Source: Polyangiaceae bacterium
Lineage (GTDB): Bacteria; Myxococcota_A; Polyangia; Polyangiales; Polyangiaceae
NCBI GenBank assembly: GCA_019637295.1
Contig: JAHBVX010000001.1
Span: 347,501 to 411,500 of the forward strand
Reading direction: 5' to 3'
DNA length: 64,000 bases
Shown here: positions 38,350 to 55,890 of the stretch, piece by piece
Layout: each line of letters opens with the position of its first letter
Position numbering within the stretch: the stretch's first letter is position 1
Position numbers and translations under genes: made by a program
Notes under the pieces: generated by a model
What the model was told of the DNA's origin: nothing
The model's database searches: none
Seen by the model: only the letters and a program-made list of their open reading frames with translations

Positions 38350-38420
38350 TCCGGCGTCGTCTAAAGGCAGGACAAGGGACTTTGAATCCCTGAATCATGG
38401 TTCGAATCCATGCGCCGGAA
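38350..38420 (+). tRNA. tRNA-Gln (anticodon UUG)
   Basis: A full cloverleaf can be drawn: acceptor TCCGGCG (38350-38356) with CGCCGGA (38413-38419) and discriminator A; anticodon stem AGGGA/TCCCT around loop CTTTGAA, anticodon TTG reading CAA; T arm CATGG-TTCGAAT-CCATG. The 3' CCA is not encoded (the next bases are CCC). About 71 nt. It stands alone between hemG and the ECF sigma gene. Confidence 0.95.
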
Positions 38421-51490: not shown

Positions 51491-52048
51491 ATGACCGCGC
51501 CAGCCGTGTCCAAGGATCCCGCCACCAAGCTGTTCGTCACTCCCGCGCGAGAGGCGATGTTCAAGCTCGTCGTCGTGGGCTACGCGGCGGCGAGCGAGTG
51601 GGTGGAGCGCGTTCGGGAGCTGATCCCGCCCGAGCGTCGCGGCGGCTTTCAGCCGCCGATGGACAACGACGGCTGGCGCATGACCGTGTTCGACTTTCGC
51701 GACGAGGCGGTCACCGCCCAGGGGCACGCCGTACGCGTGTACCTGTTCGGCCATGACGGCGTGGGCTTCATCGGACAGCCCGGACGGGCAAAGGATGTGG
51801 TGTACAAGAACGCCCACGCGCTGCTCGGCCTGGCCGACTCGGGCCAGAGCTCGCAGCTCGCCTCGGTGCTCGGGGCCGATCTGCAGCGCATGGCCAGCTC
51901 CGGGCACCAGCCCGTGGCGGTGCTCTGCTCGCCCGGCGTCGCGGCGCCGCTCGACTCGCTGCTGACCCCGCTCGACCACGACTTCCGCGCCGAGCCCCTC
52001 GCGCCACTGCGTCTCGTGCTCGACCGCGTGCTCGCGCGTGTGAGCTGA
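51491..52048 (+). CDS. Unknown alpha/beta protein
   Basis: 185 aa from ATG 51491 (an in-frame TTG at 51464 adds 9 residues). Alternating strands and helices (MFKLVVVGYAAASEWVERV; GHAVRVYLFGHDGVGFIGQ; NAHALLGLADSGQ; HQPVAVLCSPG) resemble the layout of small Ras-like/MglA GTPases, but there is no P-loop GxxxxGKS/T and no NKxD, so nucleotide binding is not supported. Convergent with the MopE-like lipoprotein gene; the structured repeat copy 1 begins immediately after its stop codon. Confidence 0.65.
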   Translation: MTAPAVSKDPATKLFVTPAREAMFKLVVVGYAAASEWVERVRELIPPERRGGFQPPMDNDGWRMTVFDFRDEAVTAQGHAVRVYLFGHDGVGFIGQPGRAKDVVYKNAHALLGLADSGQSSQLASVLGADLQRMASSGHQPVAVLCSPGVAAPLDSLLTPLDHDFRAEPLAPLRLVLDRVLARVS

Positions 52049-52203
52049 AGGTCTGTCAAGAATTGACCCAGTTCATGCCGGCGAAGCCGGCCCGCGTGGG
52101 GTGGGGTCCCAACGAATTCACTTCGTTGGGGCGGGGAGGCGCGTGCCTCCCCGGCGACAGAATGAAAGAGCTGTCGATTTTTCGACAGCTCTTGAGCGGG
52201 CCT
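52049..52203. repeat. Structured intergenic repeat, copy 1 (multi-hairpin)
   Basis: Begins right after a stop codon and fills the gap between convergent genes. Hairpins in order: GCCGGC-GAA-GCCGGC (52077-52091); CCCAACGAA/TTCGTTGGG (52108-52130); GGGGAGGC-GCGT-GCCTCCCC (52133-52152); and a perfect 12-bp stem with TTTT loop (52166-52193). A second copy with matching stems lies at 54841. The last hairpin could serve as a terminator. Confidence 0.85.
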
Positions 52204-52207
52204 CCGG

Positions 52208-53602
52208 TCACGGAGTGAACACCTCCAGGGTCGATTCGGCGTCCACCGCGCCGACCAGGCGATAGAGCTTGCCGTCCGGGGCGAACTCGAGCCGGCCGTT
52301 GCCCGCCGGAGCGGCGGGGATGCCCAGCGGGAGCGGCAGGTCCTCGGCGACGGCGGAGAGTCGGTGGAGCTTGGGCGTGCCCGACAAGAGTTCGACCCAG
52401 GCCTCGCCCACGCCTGGGCGCTCCGTCACGCTGTACACCGGCGCGTCGAAGGCCTTGAGCATCACCGCGCTGCCGCTGCTGGGCAGGTAGCGGTGGAGAC
52501 TGCCCCCGGTCTGCGTCTTGGTGCCCACCAGCACGCTGCCGTTGCGCCACGCCGCGACCGTCAGGATCTCTTCCCCTGGGAAGATGCTGACGATGCGAAA
52601 CGTGGGCTCGGTGCTACCCACCGGCGCCGTGAACTGCGCCAGTCGTCCGAGAGCAGTCGTGTCGCAGCAGGCCGGCTTGGAGGCGCTGCAGGTCACGCCC
52701 GGGTGCTGTGGATCGCAGGCCGTGCAGCTCGAGTCGGTCGAGCACGTCTCCGGCCGCCAGTTGCCCACGAAATACGTGCTGCCAGCGCCGGCCGCCAGAC
52801 CCGTGGGCGAGACGATGGGAAACCCGTTTGCGGTCACCGACGTGTCCTCGGGGATCGAGGCGAGGAACGGTGCGTCGAGGAAGCCGGGGCAGTTGCTCTG
52901 CCCGGCGCAGCCGCAGCCCGGATCCGACGCGGCGCACTCGTACAGCAGCGTCAGGCCGTTCTTCGCCAGGCAGTTACACGCCTCGCAGCAGGAGTAGGTC
53001 ACGATGACGCGCCGGCTCGCCGGGTTCGGGTCCACCAGGGCGTACCCCATGTTCTGATTCGCGTTGCCGGTGTGGGTCAGGACCGGATCGCTGGCGTTCG
53101 CCGGAACGACGGCAACGTGATCCGGACCGCTGACCACGGTGGTCAGGTACGTGTTGCACTGGGCGTCGAAGTCGATGTCGTACTTGCTGTACAAGTTCGC
53201 CTGCACCCGCGTGAGATCGACCGCACACGTCGGGCAGCCTTCATCTACGATGCCGTCGCAGTCGTTGTCGTAGCCGTCGCAGGTGGTCTCGTCGGGCTCG
53301 AAGCCGGGCCCGTTACAGACCCACAGCCCGCCCTCGCAGGTTGGTGGCGTGGACGCGCAAACGCCCACGCAGGTCGGGGCTGCGCCGAAGCAGCCGCCGT
53401 CCGCCGCGGCGTCCGCGCCCGCCCCGCCCCCGGTGGCGCCGGTCGCAGCGCCGCCGGTCGCGGCGTCGGCGCCACCGCTGCCTCCGGTGACGCCGCCACC
53501 TCCCGTGGCGCCCGCGCCGCTCGACTTGGTCTCGTCGCTCGAGCTGCACGCCACCGCCGCTGCCAGTAAGCCCCAGACGCCCAGTGCCACCGTCGCTCGC
53601 AT
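52208..53602 (-). CDS. MopE-like surface lipoprotein
   Basis: 464 aa, ATG with TAGGCT ending 9 nt upstream. Signal RATVALGVWGLLAAAVAC with lipobox, a Gly/Ala/Ser linker, then a Cys-containing start (CFGAAPTCVGVCASTPPTC) and a MopE-type putative metal-binding motif (CDGYDNDCDGIVDEGC). The remaining ~330 residues are beta-propeller-like, with repeated Trp/Asp strands and several Cys pairs (CDPQHPGVTCSASKPACCD). A surface-anchored, possibly calcium- or copper-binding protein. No catalytic motif. Confidence 0.8.
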   Translation of the reverse strand: MRATVALGVWGLLAAAVACSSSDETKSSGAGATGGGGVTGGSGGADAATGGAATGATGGGAGADAAADGGCFGAAPTCVGVCASTPPTCEGGLWVCNGPGFEPDETTCDGYDNDCDGIVDEGCPTCAVDLTRVQANLYSKYDIDFDAQCNTYLTTVVSGPDHVAVVPANASDPVLTHTGNANQNMGYALVDPNPASRRVIVTYSCCEACNCLAKNGLTLLYECAASDPGCGCAGQSNCPGFLDAPFLASIPEDTSVTANGFPIVSPTGLAAGAGSTYFVGNWRPETCSTDSSCTACDPQHPGVTCSASKPACCDTTALGRLAQFTAPVGSTEPTFRIVSIFPGEEILTVAAWRNGSVLVGTKTQTGGSLHRYLPSSGSAVMLKAFDAPVYSVTERPGVGEAWVELLSGTPKLHRLSAVAEDLPLPLGIPAAPAGNGRLEFAPDGKLYRLVGAVDAESTLEVFTP

Positions 53603-53696
53603 CGTTCGGGCAGCCTACGACATCCGCTCGCTGGGCGCTCCCCGCAAGCCCACGCTCGACACCCCGAGCGTCGCTTTGACATGATGAAGTGGCCAC

Positions 53697-54431
53697 ATGG
53701 CCAAGCGCGGGTACTCTGGGTGTGCGATCGGCGCGGCCATCGGCTGCGCGCTGCTCGTCGTCACGCTCGCCGCCGGGGTCGTCGCGCTCGCGCTGGCGCT
53801 GTTCCTTCTGACCGACGCGCCGAGCGCCAGCCCACCACCGATACCGACCGCGCGGTCCGTGCCCGACACTGACCCGGACACGGTCCCCGACCCGTCGGAC
53901 GAGCCTCCGGTCGCGCTCGACCCGAAGCTCACCGTCGAGGCCACGCGCGCGAACTACGCCATCACCGGCAAGAGCGCGGGCGAGCTGCGACGTCAGCTCG
54001 ACACCCTCGGCCCCAAGGACCAGAGCGGGAGATTCGACGCCTACACCCACTGGAACGTTCGCTGGACGTACTCCTACGACCGCACCGCCGCGGCGTGCGC
54101 GGTCACCGATGTGAAGGTGACGGTGACCGTGAAGATCACGATGCCGGAGTGGTCGCCGCCACCGGACGCATCCCCCGAACTGGTGTCCAGCTGGAACCGA
54201 TACATCAAGGCGCTCGAGCGCCACGAGAACGGCCACCGCGACAACGGCGTGGCCGCCGGTCGCGACGTCCTGAGCACGCTGCGGAGCTTTGGTTCCCGCG
54301 GCACCTGCACGAAGAGCGGCGAAGACGCCAACGCCACCGGTCTCGAGGTCGTCAAGCGCTACCAGGCGAAGGACAAGGACTACGATCGCACCACGGGTCA
54401 CGGCAGGACCCAGGGCGCCCGCTTCCCCTGA
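53697..54431 (+). CDS. DUF922-type predicted secreted zinc peptidase
   Basis: 244 aa. One N-terminal TM/signal anchor (IGAAIGCALLVVTLAAGVVALALALFLL) and a Pro/Asp-rich linker precede a DUF922-like domain: the pattern TRANYAITGKSAGELRRQLDTLGP, WNVRWTYSYDR, VTVTVKITMPEW and SWNRYIKALERHENGHRDNG. HENGH (His176-Glu177-His180) is the HExxH zinc motif that gave the family its 'predicted secreted Zn-dependent protease' name. It faces the periplasm or outside. Proteolysis has not been shown for the family to my knowledge. Confidence 0.8.
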   Translation: MAKRGYSGCAIGAAIGCALLVVTLAAGVVALALALFLLTDAPSASPPPIPTARSVPDTDPDTVPDPSDEPPVALDPKLTVEATRANYAITGKSAGELRRQLDTLGPKDQSGRFDAYTHWNVRWTYSYDRTAAACAVTDVKVTVTVKITMPEWSPPPDASPELVSSWNRYIKALERHENGHRDNGVAAGRDVLSTLRSFGSRGTCTKSGEDANATGLEVVKRYQAKDKDYDRTTGHGRTQGARFP

Positions 54432-54474
54432 CGCGCCTGTCGGCGCGGTGGGATGCGAGGGCGCGCGAGCACGT

Positions 54475-54503
54475 CCGAATTGCACCCTCGGCGAGGAATT
54501 CGG
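54475..54503. promoter_or_regulatory. Inverted repeat upstream of a sigma-54-like promoter
   Basis: CCGAATT (54475-54481) and AATTCGG (54497-54503) form a 7-bp inverted repeat, about 54 bp upstream of the -24/-12 element. It could be an enhancer-binding-protein site or a terminator of the upstream gene. Confidence 0.35.
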
Positions 54504-54556
54504 CAACATCTGCGCAGGCAGGTCGCCGCATAGTCGAGGTTTTCTCGTCGGCGAAC

Positions 54557-54571
54557 TGGCACGCATGCTGC
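54557..54571 (+). promoter_or_regulatory. Candidate sigma-54 (-24/-12) promoter
   Basis: TGGCACGCATGCTGC matches the consensus TGGCAC-N5-TTGC at all positions but one, with exact spacing of the GG and GC dinucleotides. It lies 65 bp before the ATG at 54637, in non-coding DNA. Confidence 0.55.
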
Positions 54572-54636
54572 CCGGTTTTCGGGAATGCGACCGCGCAGCC
54601 GCGGGTTGCACTCAGGAAACGAAAGCGAGGTGTCCC

Positions 54637-54840
54637 ATGGCGTACGCAGATACAGCAGGCTCGTCGATCGACCGCGAAGTTCGCGACTCGATGATGCTGA
54701 TCCGTCGCGATCGAGCCAGGCGCCTGACCTTCGCCATCGTCGCGTTGATCGTCGCGATCGTCGGGCTCTCAGCGCTCGTGTACGTGAAGTTCAACACCGA
54801 GATGGAGTCGGTCAAGGAAATGACGGTCCAACCGAACTGA
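54637..54840 (+). CDS. Small single-TM protein
   Basis: 67 aa from ATG 54637 with GAGG upstream. A basic, polar N-terminus (SSIDREVRDSMMLIRRDRARR) leads into one TM helix (LTFAIVALIVAIVGLSALVYV) and a short charged tail (KFNTEMESVKEMTVQPN). No family recognised. The sigma-54-like promoter before it and the structured repeat after it suggest an independent, inducible transcript. Could be a membrane stress or regulatory small protein. Confidence 0.65.
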   Translation: MAYADTAGSSIDREVRDSMMLIRRDRARRLTFAIVALIVAIVGLSALVYVKFNTEMESVKEMTVQPN

Positions 54841-54973
54841 AGGGCTGTCAGGAGTTGACCCAGTTCGCGCCGGCGGAGCCGGCCGACGAATTCACTTCGG
54901 CGGGGCGGGGAGGCGCGTGCCTCCCCGGTGAAAGAAGGAAGGAGCTGCCGACCACTCGACAGCTCTCGAGCCG
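54841..54973. repeat. Structured intergenic repeat, copy 2
   Basis: Starts directly after the stop of the 67-aa gene. Shares with copy 1 the TTGACCCAGTTC block, the CGAATTCACTTCG block and a 27-nt block holding GGGGAGGC-GCGT-GCCTCCCC (54907-54926). The terminal hairpin (54942-54965) keeps the stem with one mismatch and has a different loop (CCAC for TTTT). Confidence 0.85.
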
Positions 54974-55035
54974 ACATTCCTCGGGGGGCATCACGCTGAC
55001 TTCGTCCGCAACTCGATGCTACGCTGTCCGAACGG

Positions 55036-55890
55036 ATGCGCGTGCGTCGGACCGTCCAGCGACACGTCCTCCTCGTCGTCATCGGGCTAGGCGGCGTGGT
55101 TGGCGCTGCCTGTGGCAGCTCGGATGAGCGCGCCTCGGGAGGCGGGCTCGACGCGGGCGCGTCGGACGCCGACGCCGCGCACGCCCCGGACGCGCCCGCG
55201 GACTCGGAGCTGGACGCTGCTGACGTTGGCGCGGACGCGCCCGCGGACGTGCCGGCCCCGCCGTGTCCCCCGGAGATGGCGCCGGTCGGGGGCACCTGCA
55301 TCGATCGCTTCGAGGCGCCCGGCGTCGAAGGCGGCTTGCCGCTCGTGATGTACACCTTCGACGAGTCCGAGGCCTGGTGTCAGCAGCGCGGCAAGCGCCT
55401 GTGCTTCGATGACGAGTGGACGATGGCCTGCGCGGGCGACTCGATGACGGCCTACCCCTACGGCGTCACGCATCAGCCGGGGGTGTGCAATGACGACGAG
55501 CAGTGGCGCCTGTACAATCAGTCGCTGCTGAGCGGCTGGCCGGCGAAGGCGTCCAGCCCCGCCATCGAGTCCCTCGAGGAGCTGCTGGCTGTCGCGTCGA
55601 GCGTTTCCGCGTCGACCAAACAATCAGCTGACCACGTCGAGTGGCTGTACCAGGCGGAGCCGTCCGGCCACAACGCCGGCTGTACGGCGGGCAACGGCGT
55701 GTTCGATCTGACAGGGAACGTCGAGGAGTGGACTCGTCGCCGGGACGGCGGCGAGCCCAGCTTCCACGGTAGTCTCAAGGGCCGCTACTGGGCGGAGACC
55801 CGCACCTGTCAGAACGGCATCAAGACCCACGGCGATGGCTTCCGCTTCTATGAGATCGGGTTTCGCTGCTGCCGGGAAGTGAGCGAGTGA
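55036..55890 (+). CDS. FGE/sulfatase-modifying-factor-like lipoprotein
   Basis: 284 aa, ATG with TACGCT ending 10 nt upstream. Signal VLLVVIGLGGVVGAAC with lipobox, an Asp/Ala-rich linker, then a formylglycine-generating-enzyme-like domain: CPPEMAPVGGTCIDRFEAPG, ESEAWCQQRGKRLCFDDEWTMAC, GNVEEWTRR, GFRCC. This is the usual FGE/SUMF1 fold; the catalytic Cys pair of true FGE is not evident, so it may bind and not modify substrates. Outer-membrane or periplasmic. Confidence 0.82.
   Translation: MRVRRTVQRHVLLVVIGLGGVVGAACGSSDERASGGGLDAGASDADAAHAPDAPADSELDAADVGADAPADVPAPPCPPEMAPVGGTCIDRFEAPGVEGGLPLVMYTFDESEAWCQQRGKRLCFDDEWTMACAGDSMTAYPYGVTHQPGVCNDDEQWRLYNQSLLSGWPAKASSPAIESLEELLAVASSVSASTKQSADHVEWLYQAEPSGHNAGCTAGNGVFDLTGNVEEWTRRRDGGEPSFHGSLKGRYWAETRTCQNGIKTHGDGFRFYEIGFRCCREVSE

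Follow-up and report, generated by a model that had tools for sequence, protein, structure and literature searches.

Introduction

The described systems closest to the element analyzed here are the repetitive extragenic palindromic (REP) sequences, together with REP doublets forming hairpins (REPINs) and bacterial interspersed mosaic elements (BIMEs), the miniature inverted-repeat transposable elements (MITEs), and the mycobacterial interspersed repetitive units (MIRUs), whose target motif is DTGA. A REP, according to one account, is a palindrome of 20-40 bp with an unpaired tag, GTAG or CGTC, at one of its ends (PMC3733652), and MIRUs, according to another, insert at start codons and have an internal open reading frame (ORF) coupled to the gene (PMC12548453). 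The element described here occurs twice in a 64,000-nt stretch of DNA from a Polyangiaceae bacterium (GenBank assembly GCA_019637295.1, contig JAHBVX010000001.1, positions 347,501 to 411,500 of the forward strand; hereafter the window, with a G+C content of 69%). Its copies are dispersed, near-identical, mostly anchored at stop codons and structurally conserved, and we consider it reasonably probable that they belong to one family of non-autonomous mobile elements, ~150 nt long, that use stop codons as safe sites and carry a conserved structure.

With REP, REPIN and BIME sequences the element shares its many extragenic palindromic copies. It differs from them in being ~150 nt long with several hairpins, in having no associated RAYT and no repeat-flanked RAYT/Y1 gene, and in lacking the tag, since neither GTAG nor CGTC stands at a hairpin base in the 50-copy alignment, inspected by eye. 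The preliminary description of this DNA proves right for the most part, but its REP assignment, taken strictly, is unsupported. Like bacterial MITEs, the element is short, dispersed and, at 152 nt, too short for a transposase, and it has imperfect terminal inverted repeats (CTGAAGGGCTGTC against CTCAAGAGCTGTC, 11/13 matching by eye, 10/13 in subfamily 2); an acidobacterial version has 17-nt terminal repeats. Unlike MITEs, one core is joined to unlike ends across lineages. The element may still be a MITE in the strict sense: the inverted repeats are there, but neither a locus-specific target duplication at the boundaries nor, in end-pattern searches of the own genome, a parent was found. MIRUs are likewise short mobile repeats that insert overlapping a codon boundary with little effect on the gene (PMC12548453), and they are the nearest precedent we have seen for codon-overlapping insertion; the present element differs in starting at a stop, consisting of hairpins and preferring convergent gene ends. 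No account of the element was found in literature of limited coverage, which includes the accessible parts of PMC3696898, PMC3733652 and PMC12548453, so its absence from the literature is unproven.

Results

The two window copies are members of a dispersed family with at least 62 loci in their own 7.65-Mb genome, of which 50 hold a nearly complete element (~152 nt). BLAST with the second window copy gave at least 40 long matches (40 scored of 128 first-look candidates), and a pattern made from the first third of the element, with ≤3 mismatches, matched 57 times, whereas the reversed pattern matched nowhere. The element is carried by 57 of the 58 fetched loci (L058 is the one without it), 50 of them spanning nearly the whole profile, some with internal deletions, and 7 being shorter. 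A right-hairpin pattern added five loci, of which L190 is full, L191 lacks the left hairpin and L192-L194 lack the core; L193 and L194 measure 66 and 71 nt. In L192 (G000:C19, pattern match 417690-417720) both ends are fused into a single hairpin of 34 nt. Five further degenerate left ends came from a left-end pattern search. The element ends are defined as CTGAAGGKCTGTC ... GACAGCTCTYGAG. Copy number rules out the local duplication that the preliminary description had named as the outcome if only these two copies existed without covariation, and its idea of a dispersed non-autonomous element is upheld. The own-genome copies fall into two subfamilies, one of which has 24 copies with a mean minor frequency of 0.028 per column. 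Three positions of the right-hairpin tetraloop (window 52178-52181) reach a minor frequency of 0.25-0.52 in this otherwise near-identical subfamily. A blastn search of phages and plasmids with one own-genome copy gave no match.

The second to fourth bases of the element read TGA in 53 of the 57 loci (the others are L028, L041, L053 and L057; in L028 a TGA one base off scores as a stop), and in 46 of these 53 copies the called upstream gene ends exactly with that TGA, so that the orientation of the element is fixed in most copies. The preliminary observation that both window copies begin within a base of a TGA thus extends to the family. This proportion compares with the one-third expected from frame alone (p = 1e-15) and with the 26 of 72 expected from even use of the nongenic CTGA sites of the window (binomial p = 3e-14), where CTGA is found 325 times in genes, 26 times at stops and 46 times elsewhere. 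C precedes the TGA in 49 of the 53 copies, against 26 of the 46 TGA stops of the window. A purine at -2 (45/53 against 16/26, p = 0.026) was too weak for a claim. L190-L194 and the degenerate ends enter none of these stop counts. In a test that makes no use of the element boundary, most of 55 usable own-genome loci have their best-scoring upstream stop at a constant distance of ~50 nt from the core, L001 and L057 being left out because the core pattern missed both.

Comparison of upstream genes bears on whether the stop preceded the element. A dnaE2 match was obtained in 30 of 30 genomes, in some (e.g., G001) by a weaker dnaE1-like gene only, and the gene end was compared in 19 of the 29 relatives with a dnaE2-like match. 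Sixteen of these stop at the same SR(D/N)F(H/R) motif with no element in the following 57 nt, and in the other three another frame was picked. The element's TGA behind dnaE2 is, on this comparison, the ancestral stop. Measured against NCBIfam profile ends, the upstream proteins MetF, lipoamide dehydrogenase and PreA reach 274/275, 461/461 and 416/422, respectively, and the L030 protein is matched by TIGR00027 to 255/259 and continues for 27 extra residues; six other proteins were uninformative on the C-terminus.

Copy 1 (52045-52196, plus strand) is a full-length member of the GAA/GTT subfamily with 152 nt, and copy 2 (54837-54970, plus strand) has 134 nt. They had been placed at 52049-52203 and 54841-54973, so that their existence stands and their exact ends move by a few bases. 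Both start C-TGA and end YGAG; the TGA of copy 1 (52046-52048) is the in-frame stop of the upstream gene called at 51506-52048, and that of copy 2 (54838-54840) the in-frame stop of its upstream reading frame. From 5' to 3' on the plus strand, copy 1 consists of a left hairpin GTCAA-GAA-TTGAC (52055-52067), hairpin H1 GCCGGC-GAA-GCCGGC (52077-52091), a conserved core (52092-52153), a purine-rich linker, and a right hairpin AAGAGCTGTCGA-TTTT-TCGACAGCTCTT (52166-52193) with a variable tetraloop and, on the minus strand, a T-rich tail. The core comprises an unpaired G-rich strand, CCGCGTGGGGTGGGG, and two covarying stems, H2 and H3, the latter GGGGAGGC-GCGT-GCCTCCCC. The left hairpin and H1 were delimited from sequence and copy alignment; the minimum-energy plus-strand fold forms H2, H3 and the right hairpin and pairs the two leftmost hairpins otherwise, and H1 is present in the minus-strand fold. 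Copy 1 folds far more stably than shuffled sequences (z = -7.8 for the plus strand as RNA and -7.9 for the minus strand), copy 2 only moderately so (z = -2.8).

The three blocks said to be shared are present in both copies, and two of them, TTGACCCAGTTC and CGAATTCACTTCG, each have mismatch-free matches in the window at the two copies only. The right hairpin keeps 10/10 pairs in copy 1 and 9/10 in copy 2, with one C.A mismatch, while the loop changes from TTTT to CCAC, as described earlier. The reported replacement of A-T by G-C in the second hairpin (52111/52127) is correct, but the description omitted that the adjacent A-T pair (52112/52126) becomes an A.G mismatch in copy 2. Copy 2 is defective: it lacks 18 nt that include all of CCGCGTGGGGTGGGG, the strand most conserved elsewhere.

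The ~62-nt core is conserved well beyond this genome. BLAST found matches in 12 of 59 genomes, the own genome included, in other lineages mainly over the core, and gave no match in G001, the one same-genus genome examined. A covariance model, R1, had matches (E ≤ 1e-3) in 29 of the 83 genera of the order, with 44 of 183 genomes positive. Compensatory change affects 10 of the 18 pairs of H2 and H3 in an alignment of 14 cores. A larger set comprises 76 matches, which come from 70 loci and give 68 distinct rows. In it, 96.2% of cells are paired and changes on both sides occur in 15 of 18 pairs; there are 193 compensated cells against 55.7 in shuffles, and the covariation score is 0.436 against 0.142 when shuffled and ≤0.088 when slid. 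The 76-match alignment was fitted to the model and is thus biased toward it, and a plain MAFFT alignment (A3) agrees; alignment A4 retains three spurious rows (two minus-strand, one plus-strand) and, in a few cases, a partial second copy. Conservation extends to the unpaired GTGGGG strand. We suggest from these patterns that the core is a functional structure carried by the element.

A strict G-quadruplex in the core was set aside because some lineages (G508, L327) have lost the second or third G-run, and pairing of a CGCG strand with the H3 loop proved inconsistent by eye. No Rfam family matched the element in the window at the gathering score. Eleven loci of several lineages searched at E ≤ 3 gave one sub-threshold match to SAM_alpha and none at the gathering score. 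The sole Rfam match of the window is a tRNA gene at 38350-38420 (plus strand).

A convergent gene follows 34 of 51 copies (the 53 less two loci without a called next gene), against 30 of 83 in a control drawn from the window and L351-L355 that includes the two window copies and degenerate ends (p = 7e-4). The MIRU pattern of start-codon insertion with an internal ORF coupled to the next gene does not fit, as a convergent neighbor makes coupling impossible at those 34 copies. The stop of the convergent neighbor lies ≤22 nt from the element in 28 of the 34 (one overlapping); past copy 1, the convergent reading frame at 52208-53602 (minus strand) has its stop after 11 nt.

Across 49 copies, the 12 nt beyond the right hairpin on the minus strand consist of T to 58%, and 37 of the 49 have at least 5 T in 8 nt. 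A terminator scan of 51900-55100 gave 2 sites against 1.1 expected, one of them the minus-strand right hairpin of copy 2. This hairpin with its T-rich tail resembles a Rho-independent terminator; the element differs from such terminators in having no plus-strand U-tract and a conserved core that is not terminator-shaped. The mobile terminator envisaged in the preliminary description is accordingly plausible for the minus strand only, facing the convergent gene.

The ends of the element differ among lineages. They read CTGAAGG in the own genome and similarly in G114, CTGAGAG in G004 and G056, CTGAAGAGG in G163, CTAGAGCG in G150 and G022, CTRRA in G137 and G132 (genus g5), and TAGCAGG in G026 and G005. 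Counting left ends at an in-frame stop with a positive coding score, 7 of 8 copies in G114 plus G115, 3 of 3 in G004, and 3 of 4 testable copies in G163 (two more are cut by contig ends) are at stops. Four of 8 are at stops in genus g5, at TAA twice, TAG once and TGA once, the TGA with a weak score. The outer arms of the g5 right hairpin mirror the end sequence and are perfectly paired (CTAAAT, CTGAAT, CTAGAT, CCAAAT) in all eight distinct loci found by pattern (L136, L137, L139, L140, L178, L179, L104 and L356), as if the inner arm had been copied from the end sequence; L141 is matched likewise by eye. Several contigs of G026 (CANJCO01) end inside or beside an element (e.g., L148, L149, L153, L155 and L160-L162), so its copy number is probably underestimated.

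The core is also found in a second phylum. Among the matches listed in a contig pattern scan are the Acidobacteria metagenome-assembled genomes BP9.bin43, WY3.bin59 and WY4.bin4, placed in the phylum by record titles and the grouping of the search tool, alongside Myxococcales, Polyangiaceae and Byssovorax records. One acidobacterial genome has 79 matches, and 7 of 396 genomes drawn from the phylum match the core (E ≤ 1e-4, strict filters). The acidobacterial element measures ~270 nt, or ~330 nt in a second subtype, and is bounded by 17-nt terminal repeats CCCAAATCCCGCGATTG. In BP9.bin43, contigs terminate in copies of the element.

Discussion

The harm avoidance of short repeats in compact genomes is usually credited to selection after insertion. 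We propose that an enzyme encoded elsewhere and acting in trans would insert the element just 3' of CTGA, and in other lineages at CTAG, CTRRA or TA-containing ends. An element placed at a stop codon would leave the stop and the protein unchanged, and insertions within genes would be lost by selection, making the stop codon a safe harbor in compact convergent gene ends. The structure might then act between convergent genes as a 3'-end cassette that terminates or insulates transcription, a role proposed because the right hairpin has a T-rich tail on the minus strand; this is its most likely use and the weakest step of the model. Short mobile repeats supply bacteria with new 3' ends. The stop-codon position is here so exact that targeting is directly testable.

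Several observations weigh against a mobile element targeted to stop codons. The gene calls come from a simple GC-frame script and not a gene finder, and stops are called at the left end in only 4 of 8 copies in G150, 4 of 9 in G056 and 5 of the 14 with a call in G026, the G022 and G137 copies too being at stops only in part. At L125 of G114, the left gene continues ~15 residues past the end of its orthologs in G115 and G014 until it reaches the element's TGA; its stop may thus come from the element. An exact empty site in a close strain was not found; at the DNA level the window flanks are too diverged, and the G114 glgP locus has other neighbors in G115 and G014. Control convergent gaps are short as well (11 of 20 ≤25 nt against the 28 of 34; p = 0.057), and on the plus strand the hairpins lack a U-tract behind them. 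No locus-specific target duplication adjoins the boundaries of 47 copies, the best offset pairs lying ≥10 nt inside the flanks, in a test that cannot distinguish the invariant TGA from the element end. The five left-end-only loci hold no matching right end, and the search for an autonomous parent in the own genome with left- and right-end patterns returned instead the one full, one left-truncated and three core-less copies and five degenerate left ends. Y1/RAYT (PF01797), the one transposase family searched, is present in just 3 of 12 genomes, and around the single Y1 gene of the own genome (L119) the flanking 1.5 kb on each side contain neither an element end nor the core, only partial element matches with 2 mismatches; the core is likewise not found within 1.5 kb in L117 and L118, where it alone was sought, the G032 ends being not known. 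A RAYT as mobilizer is thus unsupported.

An alternative to which we give even odds is that the stop position is mainly the work of selection: the element would insert at any CTGA, copies in genes and promoters would be purged, and those at gene ends would be left. The preference for CTGA beyond TGA alone, the distribution of CTGA in the window and the general tightness of convergent gaps agree with this, yet nonstop intergenic CTGA sites outnumber stop CTGA sites in the window (46 against 26) and most copies are nevertheless at stops. It differs from stop-codon targeting solely in the share of selection. It is very improbable that the element is an immobile, vertically inherited regulatory RNA of 3' untranslated regions, as the conserved structure, gene-end position and upstream-gene orientation of most own-genome copies might suggest: the near-identical copies of the 24-member subfamily stand behind unrelated genes, none was found in the same-genus genome, and the 16 orthologous dnaE2 ends are without one.

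The structure itself can also be explained otherwise. IS200/IS605 elements and integron attC sites are known to be recognized as single-stranded DNA, and a mobilizing enzyme could recognize the present structure in this form without any RNA role. Hairpins at both ends, boundaries without target duplication, a constant left CTGA, and the 34-nt hairpin copy and core-less copies (L192-L194) would be expected of such an element, but PF01797 was not found in the element-rich genomes G026, G022, G114 and G150, and a common core with differing outer ends is the opposite of what end recognition predicts, which leaves this explanation doubtful. Template-switch (quasi-palindrome) correction acts on DNA hairpins and could produce compensatory changes with no selection on structure. 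The perfectly matched outer arms of the g5 right hairpin look like its product; however, the core has persisted across genera and in both phyla without much change in stem length, and conservation of the unpaired GTGGGG strand is left unexplained by palindrome correction, so we regard it as quite unlikely to be the whole account. The both-sided changes support the preliminary claim that structure is conserved, and part of them could be due to such correction rather than to selection.

Returning to stop-codon targeting, a tentative and rather unlikely generalization is that one structured module, the G-rich strand with two covarying stems, is carried in Myxococcota and Acidobacteriota by short mobile elements whose ends are unlike, as a portable 3'-end cassette with a built-in choice of safe sites whose enzyme is yet to be found. 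At least one lineage may recognize stop codons as a class, as proposed because genus g5 has left ends with TAA, TGA and TAG. The shared core is in any case a structured element without an Rfam match in the searches made, with a function that can be assayed, and a handle for finding the mobilizing enzyme. In the second acidobacterial subtype (L331, L333-L335, L337-L340, L349 and L350), the H3 stretch is present with an extra arm ahead of the closing CCCTCCCC.

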